A stretch of DNA of 30,131 bases from a virus. Location: positions 1-30,131 of IMG/VR virus record IMGVR_UViG_3300042867_000091; one strand, 5' to 3'. The notes beneath the pieces were generated by a model. It ran no database searches and was not told the DNA's origin. It saw only the letters and a list, made by a program, of their open reading frames with translations. Positions 17,483 to 23,628 of this stretch are shown piece after piece (the first letter of the stretch is position 1; each line of letters opens with the position of its first letter). The translations under genes were made by a program, and so were the position numbers.

Positions 17483-18556
17483 TTAGAAACCCTGTAGAAC
17501 GCGAAGCTTGTGGATAGGTTCAACTTCACGGAATACCAACATCATTCGTGTGGCAATTGGCATACCGTCATTATATGTAGAGAACTGACCAGTACCTGGT
17601 GCATAGTCGATTTCGCAGCGTGTCAGCACACATGTATTGATACGTGGGATATTAACGTTTTCTTTGCCTGCCTGAAAGAATGTAATGTCAAATTCAGCAG
17701 GAGGAATAAAATTGACACCGAAATTATCTAATTCAGGTGCCGCATGATATCTAATTGTCTTGATGATTTCACGAACAGACTTTGATTCTTCCGCGTTTCT
17801 TGGCATGAATAAGAATTCAAATTGGAAATCGCGGAGTGGTGTAGAGGCAAATAATACTTCGACACGAGGATTAATAGGGCGTCCAGCTAATTTAGCGGCA
17901 CCACTGGCCAAACTCTGAATAGTGTCTGAGGCACCACCAGCAGCAGCACCTAAATCAGCAGCAGAAGGCAATACTTCTTTTAGTGCTTGTCCCACTAGTG
18001 TTCTACCACCCACATAACTGGCAAAGAATTCAACACCCTTTGAAATAATACCAGTGGCTAATTGTCCACTAAGTGCTGTCATGGAGATTTCTTCGTAGGC
18101 GTTCATTCCATTAAATACCAGCTGTGTGCCAGGCATATATAGGGCAATACTCTCTTTAATTCTGCGGGTTCTACGTGAGGTAATCGAATCAGTCTGAGAG
18201 ACATTCCAACCACCCAATTTACTACCAAATCGTAGAACGTCAACCTTAGAAAGCTCATCAGGTAATAGCGTGGCATTACCTGGTAAATCGGTCGCAATCT
18301 GTGTAGAACCACCACGACCTGTTGTGAGTGTGACAGGCACGTTGATATTAATTACCATATAATGGCCATTATAAGACATACCTAAATCAGAAGGGAATGT
18401 CTTATAATTGAAACCATATTGTTTTTGTGAGAGTGTATTATCATCAGGCAATGCACCATCAGCAGCTATATCCCAAGCTTCATAAAGCTTATTACCTGCC
18501 CAATCCAGACCGTCTGAAATTGAACTTGTAATCTCGTCGTAGTAGCTATCGGTCAT
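17483..18556 (-). CDS. 48: Baseplate tail-tube cap gp48-like
   Basis: 357 residues from ATG 18554-18556 (MTDSYYDEITSS); T4 gp48 has 364. The start is preferred because AGGAA lies about ten bases upstream and because an in-frame TTG extension would cross the late-promoter-like site. The C-terminal third has NPRVEVLFASTPLRDFQFEF, LFMPRNAEESKSVREIIKTI and NINTCVLTRCEIDYAPGTG-like strands (RINTCVLTRCEIDYAPGTGQ), the tube-like domain shared by gp48, gp54 and tail tubes. Known role: gp48 and gp54 sit on the hub and start tube polymerisation. It is the first gene of the baseplate operon. gp54 is the alternative name; the tube-initiator class is well supported. Confidence 0.78.
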   Translation of the reverse strand: MTDSYYDEITSSISDGLDWAGNKLYEAWDIAADGALPDDNTLSQKQYGFNYKTFPSDLGMSYNGHYMVININVPVTLTTGRGGSTQIATDLPGNATLLPDELSKVDVLRFGSKLGGWNVSQTDSITSRRTRRIKESIALYMPGTQLVFNGMNAYEEISMTALSGQLATGIISKGVEFFASYVGGRTLVGQALKEVLPSAADLGAAAGGASDTIQSLASGAAKLAGRPINPRVEVLFASTPLRDFQFEFLFMPRNAEESKSVREIIKTIRYHAAPELDNFGVNFIPPAEFDITFFQAGKENVNIPRINTCVLTRCEIDYAPGTGQFSTYNDGMPIATRMMLVFREVEPIHKLRVLQGF

Positions 18557-18585
18557 GTGATGTTTATTCCTGTGGTTTTCATATA

Positions 18586-18593
18586 TATTTATG
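18586..18593 (-). promoter_or_regulatory. Late-promoter-like site CATAAATA before the baseplate operon
   Basis: Minus-strand CATAAATA differs by one base from the T4 late element TATAAATA and lies 30 bases before the gp48-like ATG. A transcript starting six or so bases downstream would carry a leader with AGGAA at a good distance from the ATG. No -35 element is seen, as expected for a gp55-type late promoter. It is the best-placed of the late sites here and would serve the whole left block. Confidence 0.6.
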
Positions 18594-18612
18594 CACAAAA
18601 ATGGAATTAATT

Positions 18613-19655: not shown

Positions 19656-20360
19656 ATGTCCAACATACCAAAAAACAATATTACAAATCCACCACGACAG
19701 CTTACTATGACAGACTTTTATGGTATTGTCTCAGCACAGGGTGGGCCAATTAAATCATGTCGATTTGTGGTCAAGATTGTCCCTCAAGGTCAATATCTAA
19801 TTGATAAAGCAGCAAACATGAGAACAATTGGACAATTTCGCGATTTGTCCTATTTGTGTGAAGCCGCTGAAATGCCTGGTAGAGGCTTCGTTAATCTAGA
19901 CGGACGCTATTATGGCCCTAATTTCAAGATACCATTCCAGTCACAGTATGAAGATACCTCTATGACATTTATTTGTCGTACGGAATCCAAAGAACGTCAA
20001 TTCTTTGATGATTGGATGGAATTAATTAATCCTACACATTTGTGGAATTTCAATTATCGTGACACGTATACCGCACAGATTCATATTTACCAGATGGCAG
20101 ACGCACCTGTTGCTAATTCTCCAGATCTTGTACCTAAAGCCACATATCAATGGACGCTTCAGGATGCTTATCCTATCGTCGTGAACCCTCAGCAAGTAAC
20201 ATGGGCTGATGATAATTTTCAACGTATTACGGTATCATTTACATATACTAAATGGACACGACCAAAGCTAGATAAACAAGCTACAGGTCTTAAGAGTCAA
20301 AAAGACTTCATTGAAGGAGCAGATGTCGTTACAGGACTACCGTCTAAAATCATATTTTAA
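19656..20360 (+). CDS. Tail-tube-fold protein (gp54- or gp19-like)
   Basis: 234 residues. The pattern CRFVVKIVPQG, CEAAEMPGRGF, YGPNFKIPFQSQYEDTSMTF, ERQFFDDWMELINPTHLWNF and ATYQWTLQDAYPIVVNPQQV followed by ITVSFTYTKW is the tail-tube fold of T4 gp19/gp54 proteins. T4 gp19 has 163 residues and gp54 has 320, so length does not decide. Next to gp26 and gp51 and close to other baseplate genes, a tube initiator (gp54) is the more likely role, because a sheath gene would be expected next to a main tube gene and none is in the window. ATG 19656 follows AAGAG. Confidence 0.75.
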   Translation: MSNIPKNNITNPPRQLTMTDFYGIVSAQGGPIKSCRFVVKIVPQGQYLIDKAANMRTIGQFRDLSYLCEAAEMPGRGFVNLDGRYYGPNFKIPFQSQYEDTSMTFICRTESKERQFFDDWMELINPTHLWNFNYRDTYTAQIHIYQMADAPVANSPDLVPKATYQWTLQDAYPIVVNPQQVTWADDNFQRITVSFTYTKWTRPKLDKQATGLKSQKDFIEGADVVTGLPSKIIF

Positions 20361-20375
20361 AGGAGTGAATTTATT

Positions 20376-21098
20376 ATGGCATTACCAAAGATAGATGTGC
20401 CAATCTATGTATTGACTATACCATCTACAGGCAAGAAAGTGAAAGTTAGACCATTTGTTGTGAAAGAAGAGAAGCTATTACTTATGGCATTAGCCTCTGA
20501 AGAAGATCAACAGATAATCGACACGACAAAGCAGATCATAAACAACTGTATATTAGATAAGACGAACATTAACAAACTGTCATTTTTTGATATAGACTAC
20601 CTGTTTATTGCACTGCGAGCTAAGTCTGTAGGTGAGACAATTGAGGTTAATTTCATTTGCAATACGATACAGGAAGACAAAACAAAGTGTGGATTTGTTT
20701 TCCCAGTAAAGATCGATATTGCTAAGGTTGAAGTCAAGAATCTCAAAGATAATATGGATGTTCAGTTGACCAGTAAAATGACGGTCAAAATGAAATACCC
20801 GTCATATGATATTATGAAGATGTTGGCAACAAAAGAGGATAATCTGAGTAAGAAAATCAAGATTATCTGTGCCTGCATCGAGAGACTTTTTGACGGTGAA
20901 CAGATGTATACGCCGAAAGACTACAGTAAAGAAGAGTTTGAGGCATTTATTGAGGATATGACAGAAGAACAATTCAAGAAATTGGATGCATTTATTAATA
21001 CATTACCCTCATTCGTTGTGGTTGCAGATCATGAATGTCCTAAATGTGGCACGAAACACCATATCGAATATAAAGACTTTACAAGTTTTTTTCGCTAA
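20376..21098 (+). CDS. 26: Baseplate hub/tail assembly protein gp26-like
   Basis: 240 residues against 208 in T4 gp26. The N-terminus IDVPIYVLTIPSTGKKVKVR, then PFVVKEEKLLLMALASEED, is the conserved start of the T4 gp26 family (T4_baseplate domain). LSFFDIDYLFIALRAKSVGE is a second family block. A CPKCGTKHH motif near the C-terminus, with an upstream Cys pair region (FICNTIQEDKTKCGFVF), may bind zinc. ATG 20376 has a near-perfect AAAGGAG. The last codons are AGT TTT TTT CGC TAA, forming an in-phase slippery site that would fuse it to gp51. By analogy with lambda G/GT and P2 E/E+E', the pair may act as tape-measure chaperones. Confidence 0.88.
   Translation: MALPKIDVPIYVLTIPSTGKKVKVRPFVVKEEKLLLMALASEEDQQIIDTTKQIINNCILDKTNINKLSFFDIDYLFIALRAKSVGETIEVNFICNTIQEDKTKCGFVFPVKIDIAKVEVKNLKDNMDVQLTSKMTVKMKYPSYDIMKMLATKEDNLSKKIKIICACIERLFDGEQMYTPKDYSKEEFEAFIEDMTEEQFKKLDAFINTLPSFVVVADHECPKCGTKHHIEYKDFTSFFR
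21086..21092 (+). promoter_or_regulatory. Candidate -1 ribosomal frameshift site T TTT TTT joining gp26 and gp51
   Basis: Seven T residues lie in phase as X XXY YYZ, one sense codon before the gp26 stop (21096-21098). A -1 slip here reads TCG CTA ATG CTT, entering exactly the gp51 frame through the gp51 start ATG. The product would be 310 residues: 239 of gp26, Ser-Leu, and all 69 of gp51. No clear downstream hairpin or upstream stimulatory Shine-Dalgarno was seen. Confidence 0.55.
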
Positions 21099-21307
21099 TG
21101 CTTGGTTACAATAATCTTGGTAATTTTTACAAGACGAATTTCGCGTTAATGCAACACCACAAATACTCGCTACAAGACTTAGAGAGTATGATACCTTGGG
21201 AAAGATATTTGTATATCGATATGCTTAAGGAACACATTAAAGAGCAAAACGAGAAATCCCGTGATCAAGCCGCAGCAGCAACCGCTAGAAGAAGATCGAA
21301 TAGATGA
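21098..21307 (+). CDS. 51: Baseplate hub assembly chaperone gp51-like
   Basis: 69 residues. The pattern NFYKTNFALMQHHKYSLQDL, then MIPWERYLYIDMLKEHIKEQ, resembles gp51 and small tail-assembly proteins of the P2/lambda chaperone type (a short helix, then Pro-Trp/Phe-x-x-R/E-Tyr). A charged tail (NEKSRDQAAAATARRRSNR) follows. Its ATG overlaps the gp26 stop as TAATG, and its own stop overlaps the next start as ATGA. T4 also has genes 26 and 51 adjacent. It may be made alone by coupled initiation and also as the C-terminal part of a gp26-gp51 frameshift product. Confidence 0.78.
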   Translation: MLGYNNLGNFYKTNFALMQHHKYSLQDLESMIPWERYLYIDMLKEHIKEQNEKSRDQAAAATARRRSNR

Positions 21308-23628
21308 ACAATAAATTTCAAAACCTAACTGTGGACTTTTCACAGCTCCGTTCTATTCCAATCCAAGAGAGAGTTACACTAGCTGGCTCTCCTCTTGGAA
21401 ATAGCATATTTGGTAATATGTCACCTACTGAAATTGCGCGATTATTTCCAAAGTATTATCAGGAAACAGTACCAACAATTGCAGGTATGTCGAGTGCTGT
21501 ATCTGGTGGCACTAATATGGGTGGTGGATCAGGTGGTAGTGGTAAACGAAACAATGTAGCACCAGCTGAGCCTGTACCATTAACACTTGCTCAACGTATT
21601 GCTCAAGCTGCTAATGTAAAGCGTAATCCTATGGTGCCTGGTTCATTCTCGACCCAAGCTCCAGGTATCATGCGTCGATTAATGTCTGATTTTGGAGTAA
21701 CACGCGAACAGGCAGCAGGTATTGTTGGAAATTTAGGACATGAGTCTGCTGGTCTTCAAGCAGGCATTCAAGAACTTAAACCTCGTGCAGGTCGCGGTGG
21801 TTTAGGATGGGCACAATGGACTGGTGTTCGTCGCGTTGCATTTGAAAAGTATCTCGTAGATAATGGTTTAGAAGCAACTGATCCAGAAGCTAATTATGGC
21901 TTTCTGAAGCAAGAATTACTTACCACACATAAAAGCGCGTTAGAAGCTGTCAGAAACACTACCGATACAGAGCAGGCAACTAAAGTGTTTGAGCAAACGT
22001 TTGAAAAAGCCGCAGATGATGCAAAACACTATGATGCGCGAAATAGATATGCACAGCAGGCTCTAGAAGCATATGACACTGCTGATCCTACAGAAAACAC
22101 TCACATTCAAGATGGGACAGATGCAGCACCCACTGATCTTATTACAGACGGCACTACAACAGGACCTGAACCTACAGCACGTATTACACCAGAAACAATT
22201 GGATCAGTAGAAGGTCTAGATCCAAAAGTTGCTGAATATGCTGCAACACTTTCAGGAGCTGATGCAACTCAGTTCTATGAAAACTTAAACACTGTAGGCA
22301 ATATTGATGAAATCAATAGAATGTCTAAAGAAACACCTGCTGCTGTCGGTGAGACTGCATCACAGCAACCTGTATCATCCACAAATATCATTCCTGAAAA
22401 CTCACTGACTGAACGTTATAACAATCTTCGTCAGAACTATTCCGAAGATGTGGGCAGAGATAGTCCTATCTGGAATGAAATTGACCCTGTGTTTGGTCAG
22501 AATCTGGATCATGATCGTAACAATCGTACCATGTCTACTGGCATTCTTGATTGGGACACAGATAAGGTCAGTCGTGAAACTCTTATTGCTGCTGATGCTG
22601 CCGCAAAGGTATTACGTAAGTACGGTTATGCTCCACGTATCGCTAATGGCGGAGGTGGTAACGATCACTCAGCAAATCACGGTAGTGGTCGTGATAAGAA
22701 CTACGCTATCGATATGGCAGCGTTTGATCAAGAAGGTAGAGCAATTACACTGGCTCAGTTACCTAAAGACATTAAGCAGGAAATGTATCAAGCTGCAAGA
22801 CTGACGGCAGCTAACGATACAGGTATGGCATTAGGGTATACAATGAATAATACATCTGCACACTTACAGGCAGGTGATGATACCAGAGAAATGTCTTTCT
22901 GGGGATATTCGAATGGACCAGGAAATTCATCTTCAGCGTCATTACAAAATACGCAAGAGGGTCAAGAGTTCTTGAATCAAATGCAACAAATTTCTCAGAT
23001 GACTCCTGAACAAAGAGCAGATCATTTAGATAAGCTTACAAACACACAGAGATATGATCAGGTTAATCCTACACCTAATGAGCATATTCAGACAAACGAT
23101 GCTGGCGCAGTGGAAACTGATGCAGCACCTGTTCCTCTTGCAACCGACACAGAGACTACAACAGAACCAGAACAACCAACTGCTGTTCCTGAACAAGCTG
23201 CGGAAGTGCCAGCTCAACAAATGGCACAAGGTGGTTACATCGACCAGAAAGACAATCTACAAGTGGTCGACAAGAATAGTGGAGATGTGAAAGCTGAGAT
23301 TAATAATGGTGAATTGCAAGATGGTATAGATGCAAAAGGCGGTGGACTTCAAGTCAAGTCTAATGTCACACGCAAAGCTGATGATCTAATTCAGAAGTAT
23401 GACGAGCAGACAAATATTGATTCACCTACTGATCCTGCTGCAAAGAAAGCAAGACCTGAAGAGCGTGATCCAATTCAGGGTGGTATGTCATCACCAATTC
23501 AAAATTCACAAGCTGCTGGTAACATCGGCAATATACCTGGCACTAATGCGTTTAATGAGATCCATGCATCACTTCACAGGGCATATGGACTATCGCGAGA
23601 TCGAATGAACTACGGCAACGTTAGCTAA
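21304..23628 (+). CDS. Large hub/tail protein with tail lysozyme and possible M15-like peptidase domains
   Basis: 774 residues. The N-terminus (GNMSPTEIARLFPKYYQETV, residues 38-57) is followed by a Gly/Ser linker. Residues about 115-258 form a phage tail lysozyme-like domain: IMRRLMSDFGVTREQAAGIV, then GNLGHESAG with likely catalytic Glu147, and GLGWAQWTGVRR. Residues about 435-530 contain NDHSANHGSGRDKNYAIDMA and, 45 residues later, SAHLQAGDD; the His...Asp...His order recalls M15-type zinc peptidases (tentative). Acidic Pro/Gln/Thr-rich linkers and a segment GGYIDQKDNLQVVDKNSGDV follow. It comes directly after gp26/gp51, the slot of a tape measure protein, but it lacks the long helical content expected. 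It probably opens the peptidoglycan during infection. Confidence 0.78.
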   Translation: MNNKFQNLTVDFSQLRSIPIQERVTLAGSPLGNSIFGNMSPTEIARLFPKYYQETVPTIAGMSSAVSGGTNMGGGSGGSGKRNNVAPAEPVPLTLAQRIAQAANVKRNPMVPGSFSTQAPGIMRRLMSDFGVTREQAAGIVGNLGHESAGLQAGIQELKPRAGRGGLGWAQWTGVRRVAFEKYLVDNGLEATDPEANYGFLKQELLTTHKSALEAVRNTTDTEQATKVFEQTFEKAADDAKHYDARNRYAQQALEAYDTADPTENTHIQDGTDAAPTDLITDGTTTGPEPTARITPETIGSVEGLDPKVAEYAATLSGADATQFYENLNTVGNIDEINRMSKETPAAVGETASQQPVSSTNIIPENSLTERYNNLRQNYSEDVGRDSPIWNEIDPVFGQNLDHDRNNRTMSTGILDWDTDKVSRETLIAADAAAKVLRKYGYAPRIANGGGGNDHSANHGSGRDKNYAIDMAAFDQEGRAITLAQLPKDIKQEMYQAARLTAANDTGMALGYTMNNTSAHLQAGDDTREMSFWGYSNGPGNSSSASLQNTQEGQEFLNQMQQISQMTPEQRADHLDKLTNTQRYDQVNPTPNEHIQTNDAGAVETDAAPVPLATDTETTTEPEQPTAVPEQAAEVPAQQMAQGGYIDQKDNLQVVDKNSGDVKAEINNGELQDGIDAKGGGLQVKSNVTRKADDLIQKYDEQTNIDSPTDPAAKKARPEERDPIQGGMSSPIQNSQAAGNIGNIPGTNAFNEIHASLHRAYGLSRDRMNYGNVS

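Follow-up and report, generated by a model that had tools for sequence, protein, structure and literature searches.

In the G/GT class of tail assembly chaperones (TACs), only a few percent as much long form is made as short form, and the chaperone associates with the tape measure protein and stays out of the virion; the slippery heptamer of lambda is G_GGA_AAG. The TAC genes of T4-like phages are reportedly gp26 and gp51, which fits the homology described below. Chaperones made by a -1 shift form the lambda G/GT class of Xu, Hendrix & Duda (2004), as cited in PMC8785237. According to the papers that cite it, the study of Vladimirov, Gautam & Davidson (2022) identified the TAC genes of T4-like phages; PRFect cites it for some T4-like phages that carry a short gene and a fused long gene and do not frameshift, and in the paper on Pseudomonas phage Adele (PMC12846349) it is the reference given for poly-T signals of a shift in the TAC-N genes of T4-like phages. 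The Adele TAC itself also involves a -1 frameshift, placed at a poly-T motif where TAC-N ends, but the motif is GTTTTT and the phage belongs to a different family. The gp26/gp51 loci of KVP40, Syn9, S-CAM3, HTVC008M and Cr30 share one layout, with T_TTT_TTY 0–3 nt before the stop and gp51 annotated as a separate gene, and several of them add an upstream Shine–Dalgarno (SD)-like element or a downstream hairpin that the DNA studied here does not have.

The same gene pair as in the T4-like TACs of Vladimirov, Gautam & Davidson (2022) is carried by the window, that is, the whole 30,131-nucleotide viral stretch analysed here, a metagenomic contig. A first-pass annotation knew of no such shift described for the T4 gp26/gp51 pair and suggested that the window could tie the T4 genes to the chaperones; judging from the citing papers, that tie appears to be already in print in that 2022 study. 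The mechanism is already known in many tailed phages, and the window is a further well-supported example. In the window, gp26 and gp51 very probably constitute a single TAC locus, from which -1 programmed ribosomal frameshifting would yield a short and a long form; this reading is supported because the heptamer, the -1 frame and the post-slip residues are conserved. Most ribosomes would terminate at the gp26 stop and release the 240-aa short form, while a minority would slip back one base on U_UUU_UUU, with the P and A sites occupied by two Phe-tRNAs, bypass the gp26 stop and continue in the gp51 frame to give the 310-aa long form. The two forms would coat or fold a tail-length or hub protein during baseplate or tail assembly, and neither would be expected in the virion; that slippage occurs, how frequently it does so and the chaperone role are what we infer. 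The two genes, long annotated as a baseplate hub subunit and a hub assembly catalyst, would then, in cyanophage-like phages and several members of the Straboviridae, behave as the two forms of a single chaperone made by frameshifting, and gp51 gene calls there would therefore mostly be C-terminal fragments.

Gene order and the fold of gp26

The features of the locus are the following:

19656 to 20360, + strand: gene for the tail tube protein, immediately 5' of gp26 (phrog_45, E 2.3e-25; PF23849, weak)
20376 to 21098, + strand: gp26 open reading frame, 240 aa, putative TAC-N short form (PF12322, phrog_150, AF2 model of residues 1–95)
21086 to 21092, + strand: candidate slippery heptamer T_TTT_TTT in gp26 phase (sequence, window scan, 34 of 38 clusters)
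21092 to 21307, + strand: -1 frame extension SLMLGYNN..., the predicted C-terminal domain of the long form (stop at 21305–21307; profile A3; homology to the T4 gp51 C-terminus)
21096 to 21098, + strand: gp26 stop TAA, overlapping the gp51 ATG by one base (TAATG)
21098 to 21307, + strand: gp51 open reading frame as conventionally called, ATG at 21098, 69 aa (phrog_634, phrog_150)
21304 to 23628, + strand: gene whose 774-aa product carries a phage tail lysozyme domain (PF18013, E 8.4e-29), overlapping the gp51 stop by four bases

The full length of gp26 matches PF12322 T4_baseplate (E 2.5e-58) and phrog_150 (E 8.8e-62), and gp51 matches phrog_634, baseplate hub assembly catalyst (E 3.8e-25), and positions 240–282 of phrog_150 (E 2e-5); because gp51 matches its C-terminal end, the phrog_150 family itself seems to contain fused members. 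As in lambda G/GT, a short open reading frame follows the tail tube gene, the heptamer stands a few nucleotides before the stop, and a -1 extension would give a minor long form; unlike lambda, the heptamer is T_TTT_TTT, the phage is a T4-like myovirus, and no clear tape measure gene lies directly downstream. The first-pass annotation pointed to tail assembly genes before the tape measure in lambda and P2 as users of such shifts. In the window, the tail tube gene is upstream of gp26, and the downstream gene, at the place expected for the tape measure, is not recognisable as one. Its 774-aa product gave no tape measure match in the Pfam/PHROG domain assignments, where PF18013 was found instead (residues 121–257), and BLAST found no similarity to T4 gp27, gp28 or gp29 or to proteins annotated as tape measures. 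An annotated tape measure follows the gp26/gp51 locus in Cr30 and HTVC008M. Megablast of the window locus against phage records returned no match.

Kinship with the chaperone class of lambda and P2, as put forward in the first-pass annotation, gains support from the predicted fold. In the AF2 model of gp26 (mean pLDDT 85), residues 1–95 match the PDB entries 3FGX (Z 7.9), 2OB9 (HK97 gp13; Z 7.6) and 3KLU (Z 7.3), values that the tool's own warning treats as possibly middling, its comfort line being Z 8. These three matches span 84–85 residues, all within the N-terminal domain, and are followed by 5IR0 (Z 5.0), with the remaining chains at Z 3.0 or lower. All three top matches are identified in PMC9603447 as tail assembly chaperones of phages. 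Foldseek alone ranked 2OB9 with a probability of 0.69 and a non-significant E-value; the gp26 profile had no match among the PDB sequences, and no tail assembly chaperone was listed among the PDB chains for the model of T4 gp51, in a search that passed through a prefilter. The gp26 model supports a TAC fold for the N-terminal domain of gp26, which would link it to the lambda/P2 chaperone class.

The heptamer and the junction in the window

The 3' end of gp26 reads AGT TTT TTT CGC TAA, which places T_TTT_TTT in the X_XXY_YYZ phase, 3 nt before the stop and separated from it by one sense codon (CGC), just as the first-pass annotation had described. Its further claim that a -1 slip enters the gp51 frame exactly also holds, the -1 frame being open from 21074 to 21304 and the predicted fusion being 310 aa long with the junction TSFF|SLMLGYNN, identical to the peptide anticipated there. 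As the open stretch of the -1 frame begins only at 21074, a slip that joins the two frames must fall within 22 nt of the gp26 stop, where no slippery site other than the heptamer occurs. In-phase heptamers of any kind number 25 in the 9,488 codons of the window (0.0026 per codon), and the one at 21086–21092 is the only in-phase T6Y among them. The TAATG overlap by itself puts gp51 in the -1 frame, and frame agreement is therefore weak evidence; the case for the predicted shift rests on conservation in relatives and not on frame agreement.

Homopolymers are prone to sequencing error, and an indel in the T run, introduced by sequencing or assembly, would split one gene into two. There is next to no chance of this, as the same split recurs in independent contigs, in about 190 loci and isolates whose surrounding codons differ; a homopolymer sequencing error was rejected on the independent contigs L004, L005 and L006, which carry the same seven T's.

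Elsewhere in the window, the tail tube cap gene (17483–18598, - strand) has an in-phase GGGTTTC directly before its stop and a 47-nt overlap with the next gene. A -1 slip at that site would miss the next gene, which by arithmetic lies in the +1 frame.

Conservation of the junction and the two-gene loci

Loci of gp26 were gathered from viral contigs and phage records, and every junction was read. An in-phase T_TTT_TTY (last base C or T), 0–6 nt before the stop, is present in 34 of the 38 gp26 clusters formed at 60% protein identity and in 96 of the 100 formed at 80%, as well as in the isolates KVP40, EniLVp02, Mendera, LPCS28, pf16 and Syn9. The first-pass annotation had listed a lost T run in close homologues among the outcomes that would speak against the shift; the run is kept both in the independent contigs L004–L006 and across the clusters. 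With the encoded residues fixed and the codon usage of each gene applied, 13.6 slippery sites would be expected among the 34 clusters, against 34 observed (log10 P -15.7, a figure that treats clusters as independent and so overstates significance). The residue preceding Phe-Phe is variable (S, D, N, R or A), and its codon always ends in T. As judged from this codon choice, the slippery site is kept beyond protein constraint in the relatives.

The four exceptions at 60% identity comprise three Ackermannviridae-type clusters and one contig with a broken frame, L115. The latter is HTVC008M-like, and its broken gp26 probably reflects a contig error or a decayed copy. In the Ackermannviridae-type loci (L089, L090, L091, L095, L205, L206 and L207), the -1 layout and the C-terminal domain are kept, and gp26 ends in N_NTT_TTY (ATTTTC, GTTTTT, CTTTTC/T) rather than in a complete slippery heptamer; two of them, L091 and L205, have neither an ATG nor an annotated gene at the junction.

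Past the slip, the -1 frame encodes the same single conserved C-terminal domain across the relatives, [RSL]-x-x-[LM]-x-[HY]-x-x-L-...-NFALMQHHKYSL-...-PWER, with conservation beginning at the first post-slip residue. Its profile, A3, has one match in the 30-kb record of the window (E 9.8e-34, the window being itself a member of the profile), and PF12322 likewise matches once in this record. Each of six complete frameshift-type genomes also holds a single PF12322 match and a single C-terminal domain; no separate full-length long form was found in the 30-kb record, which is a genome fragment, or in the six complete relatives. In S-CAM3, the annotated gp51 begins far inside the C-terminal domain, and elsewhere this frame has been given an internal start or no annotation at all (L003, 3765–3899; L087, 3211–3384; L211, after 2229).

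These data also bear on termination–reinitiation at UAAUG, by which gp51 would be a separate 69-aa protein and the T run would merely encode Phe-Phe. The TAATG overlap in the window is in agreement with it, as is an ATG at the stop in 9 of the 34 clusters (within 9 nt in 9 more), and gp51 has no clear SD of its own (best match, 3 nt), as is often the case in coupled genes. Nevertheless, in 16 of the 34 clusters the junction has no ATG nearby, the first ATG coming later, past conserved residues, and these clusters keep the heptamer together with the residues that reinitiation would omit; the slippery codon choice exceeds the codon-usage expectation, and T4 encodes a fused protein. Reinitiation in place of the shift is for these reasons improbable, and -1 frameshifting is preferred as the origin of the long form, although reinitiation at UAAUG could add some free gp51 in the window besides it.

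T4 carries gp26 (208 aa) on one strand and gp51 (249 aa) on the other, and PF12322 matches both. The alignment of the predicted fusion with T4 gp51 spans the junction (residues 23–286, 4e-13 with composition adjustment off), and the fusion profile covers T4-type gp51 at positions 74–283, whereas its match to T4 gp26 ends at position 240. T4 gp26 is thus homologous to the short form only, and T4 gp51 to the whole fusion. Unlike the window, T4 has two separate genes on opposite strands and no slippery site, the Phe-Phe codons being TTC TTT. The suggestion in the first-pass annotation that the shift could tie the T4 genes to the chaperone class needs one correction here: T4 itself does not use the shift, gp51 being the separately encoded full-length long form.

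The same layout is found at the other two-gene loci examined, namely a Mosigvirus, an Acinetobacter phage and ten T4-like contigs (a set that includes L098, whose gp26 is truncated), all with gp26 on the other strand and none, T4 included, with an in-phase heptamer at the Phe-Phe of gp26; two PF12322 matches each are found in T4 and the Acinetobacter phage. At the loci examined, the slippery site is therefore absent where a separate long gene is present. The Straboviridae hold both types, the shift type being represented by KVP40, EniLVp02, LPCS28 and AsFcp_4. This contrast with T4, with its separate genes and the slippery codons gone, would make the role of the ratio between short and long forms directly testable.

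Stimulatory elements around the heptamer

In many relatives, an SD-like GAGGG lies about 9 nt upstream of the heptamer. GAGG occurs within 20 nt upstream in 19 of the 34 clusters, and on average the anti-SD pairing upstream of the heptamer is stronger than in sequences shuffled synonymously (mean z -1.4). Downstream, the 47 nt past the heptamer form more stable structures than 95% of their synonymous variants in 12 of the 34 clusters, and at 80% identity the same test places 52 of 95 clusters beyond the coding null. The window has no SD-like stimulator upstream of the heptamer and no downstream structure beyond that of shuffles (z +0.5; fraction 0.35 against synonymous versions).

The same elements bear on transcriptional slippage, in which the RNA polymerase would add an extra U on the T run and the mRNA would be read as the fusion. 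A homopolymer of seven T's would suit such slippage, and one added U would produce the same frame change, but the run in most relatives is just T6 and then a C, held strictly to the codon phase, and many carry SD-like and hairpin elements, which are typical of ribosomal -1 shifts and which a polymerase would not need. Slippage by the polymerase is accordingly very improbable, and ribosomal frameshifting is retained.

Among the clusters, a stimulator is present at 4 of 13 T7 sites and at 17 of 21 T6C sites (Fisher p 0.009), a comparison whose cut-offs were set after seeing the data and which is uncorrected for shared descent. The clade of the window may depend on its more slippery heptamer without further help, or may shift at a lower rate. 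A broader and rather doubtful possibility is that a bare U7 in this clade, and in most other lineages a less slippery U6C with an SD-like element, a hairpin or both, are two sides of a trade-off between heptamer strength and stimulator that holds one chaperone ratio, from which T4 would have escaped by gene duplication.

Strong hairpins begin 0–7 nt 3' of the heptamer in L003, L151, L121, L145, L106 and others. Within clusters, the downstream hairpin mostly shows little covariation, and five double-change pairs are found in the S-CAM3 cluster.
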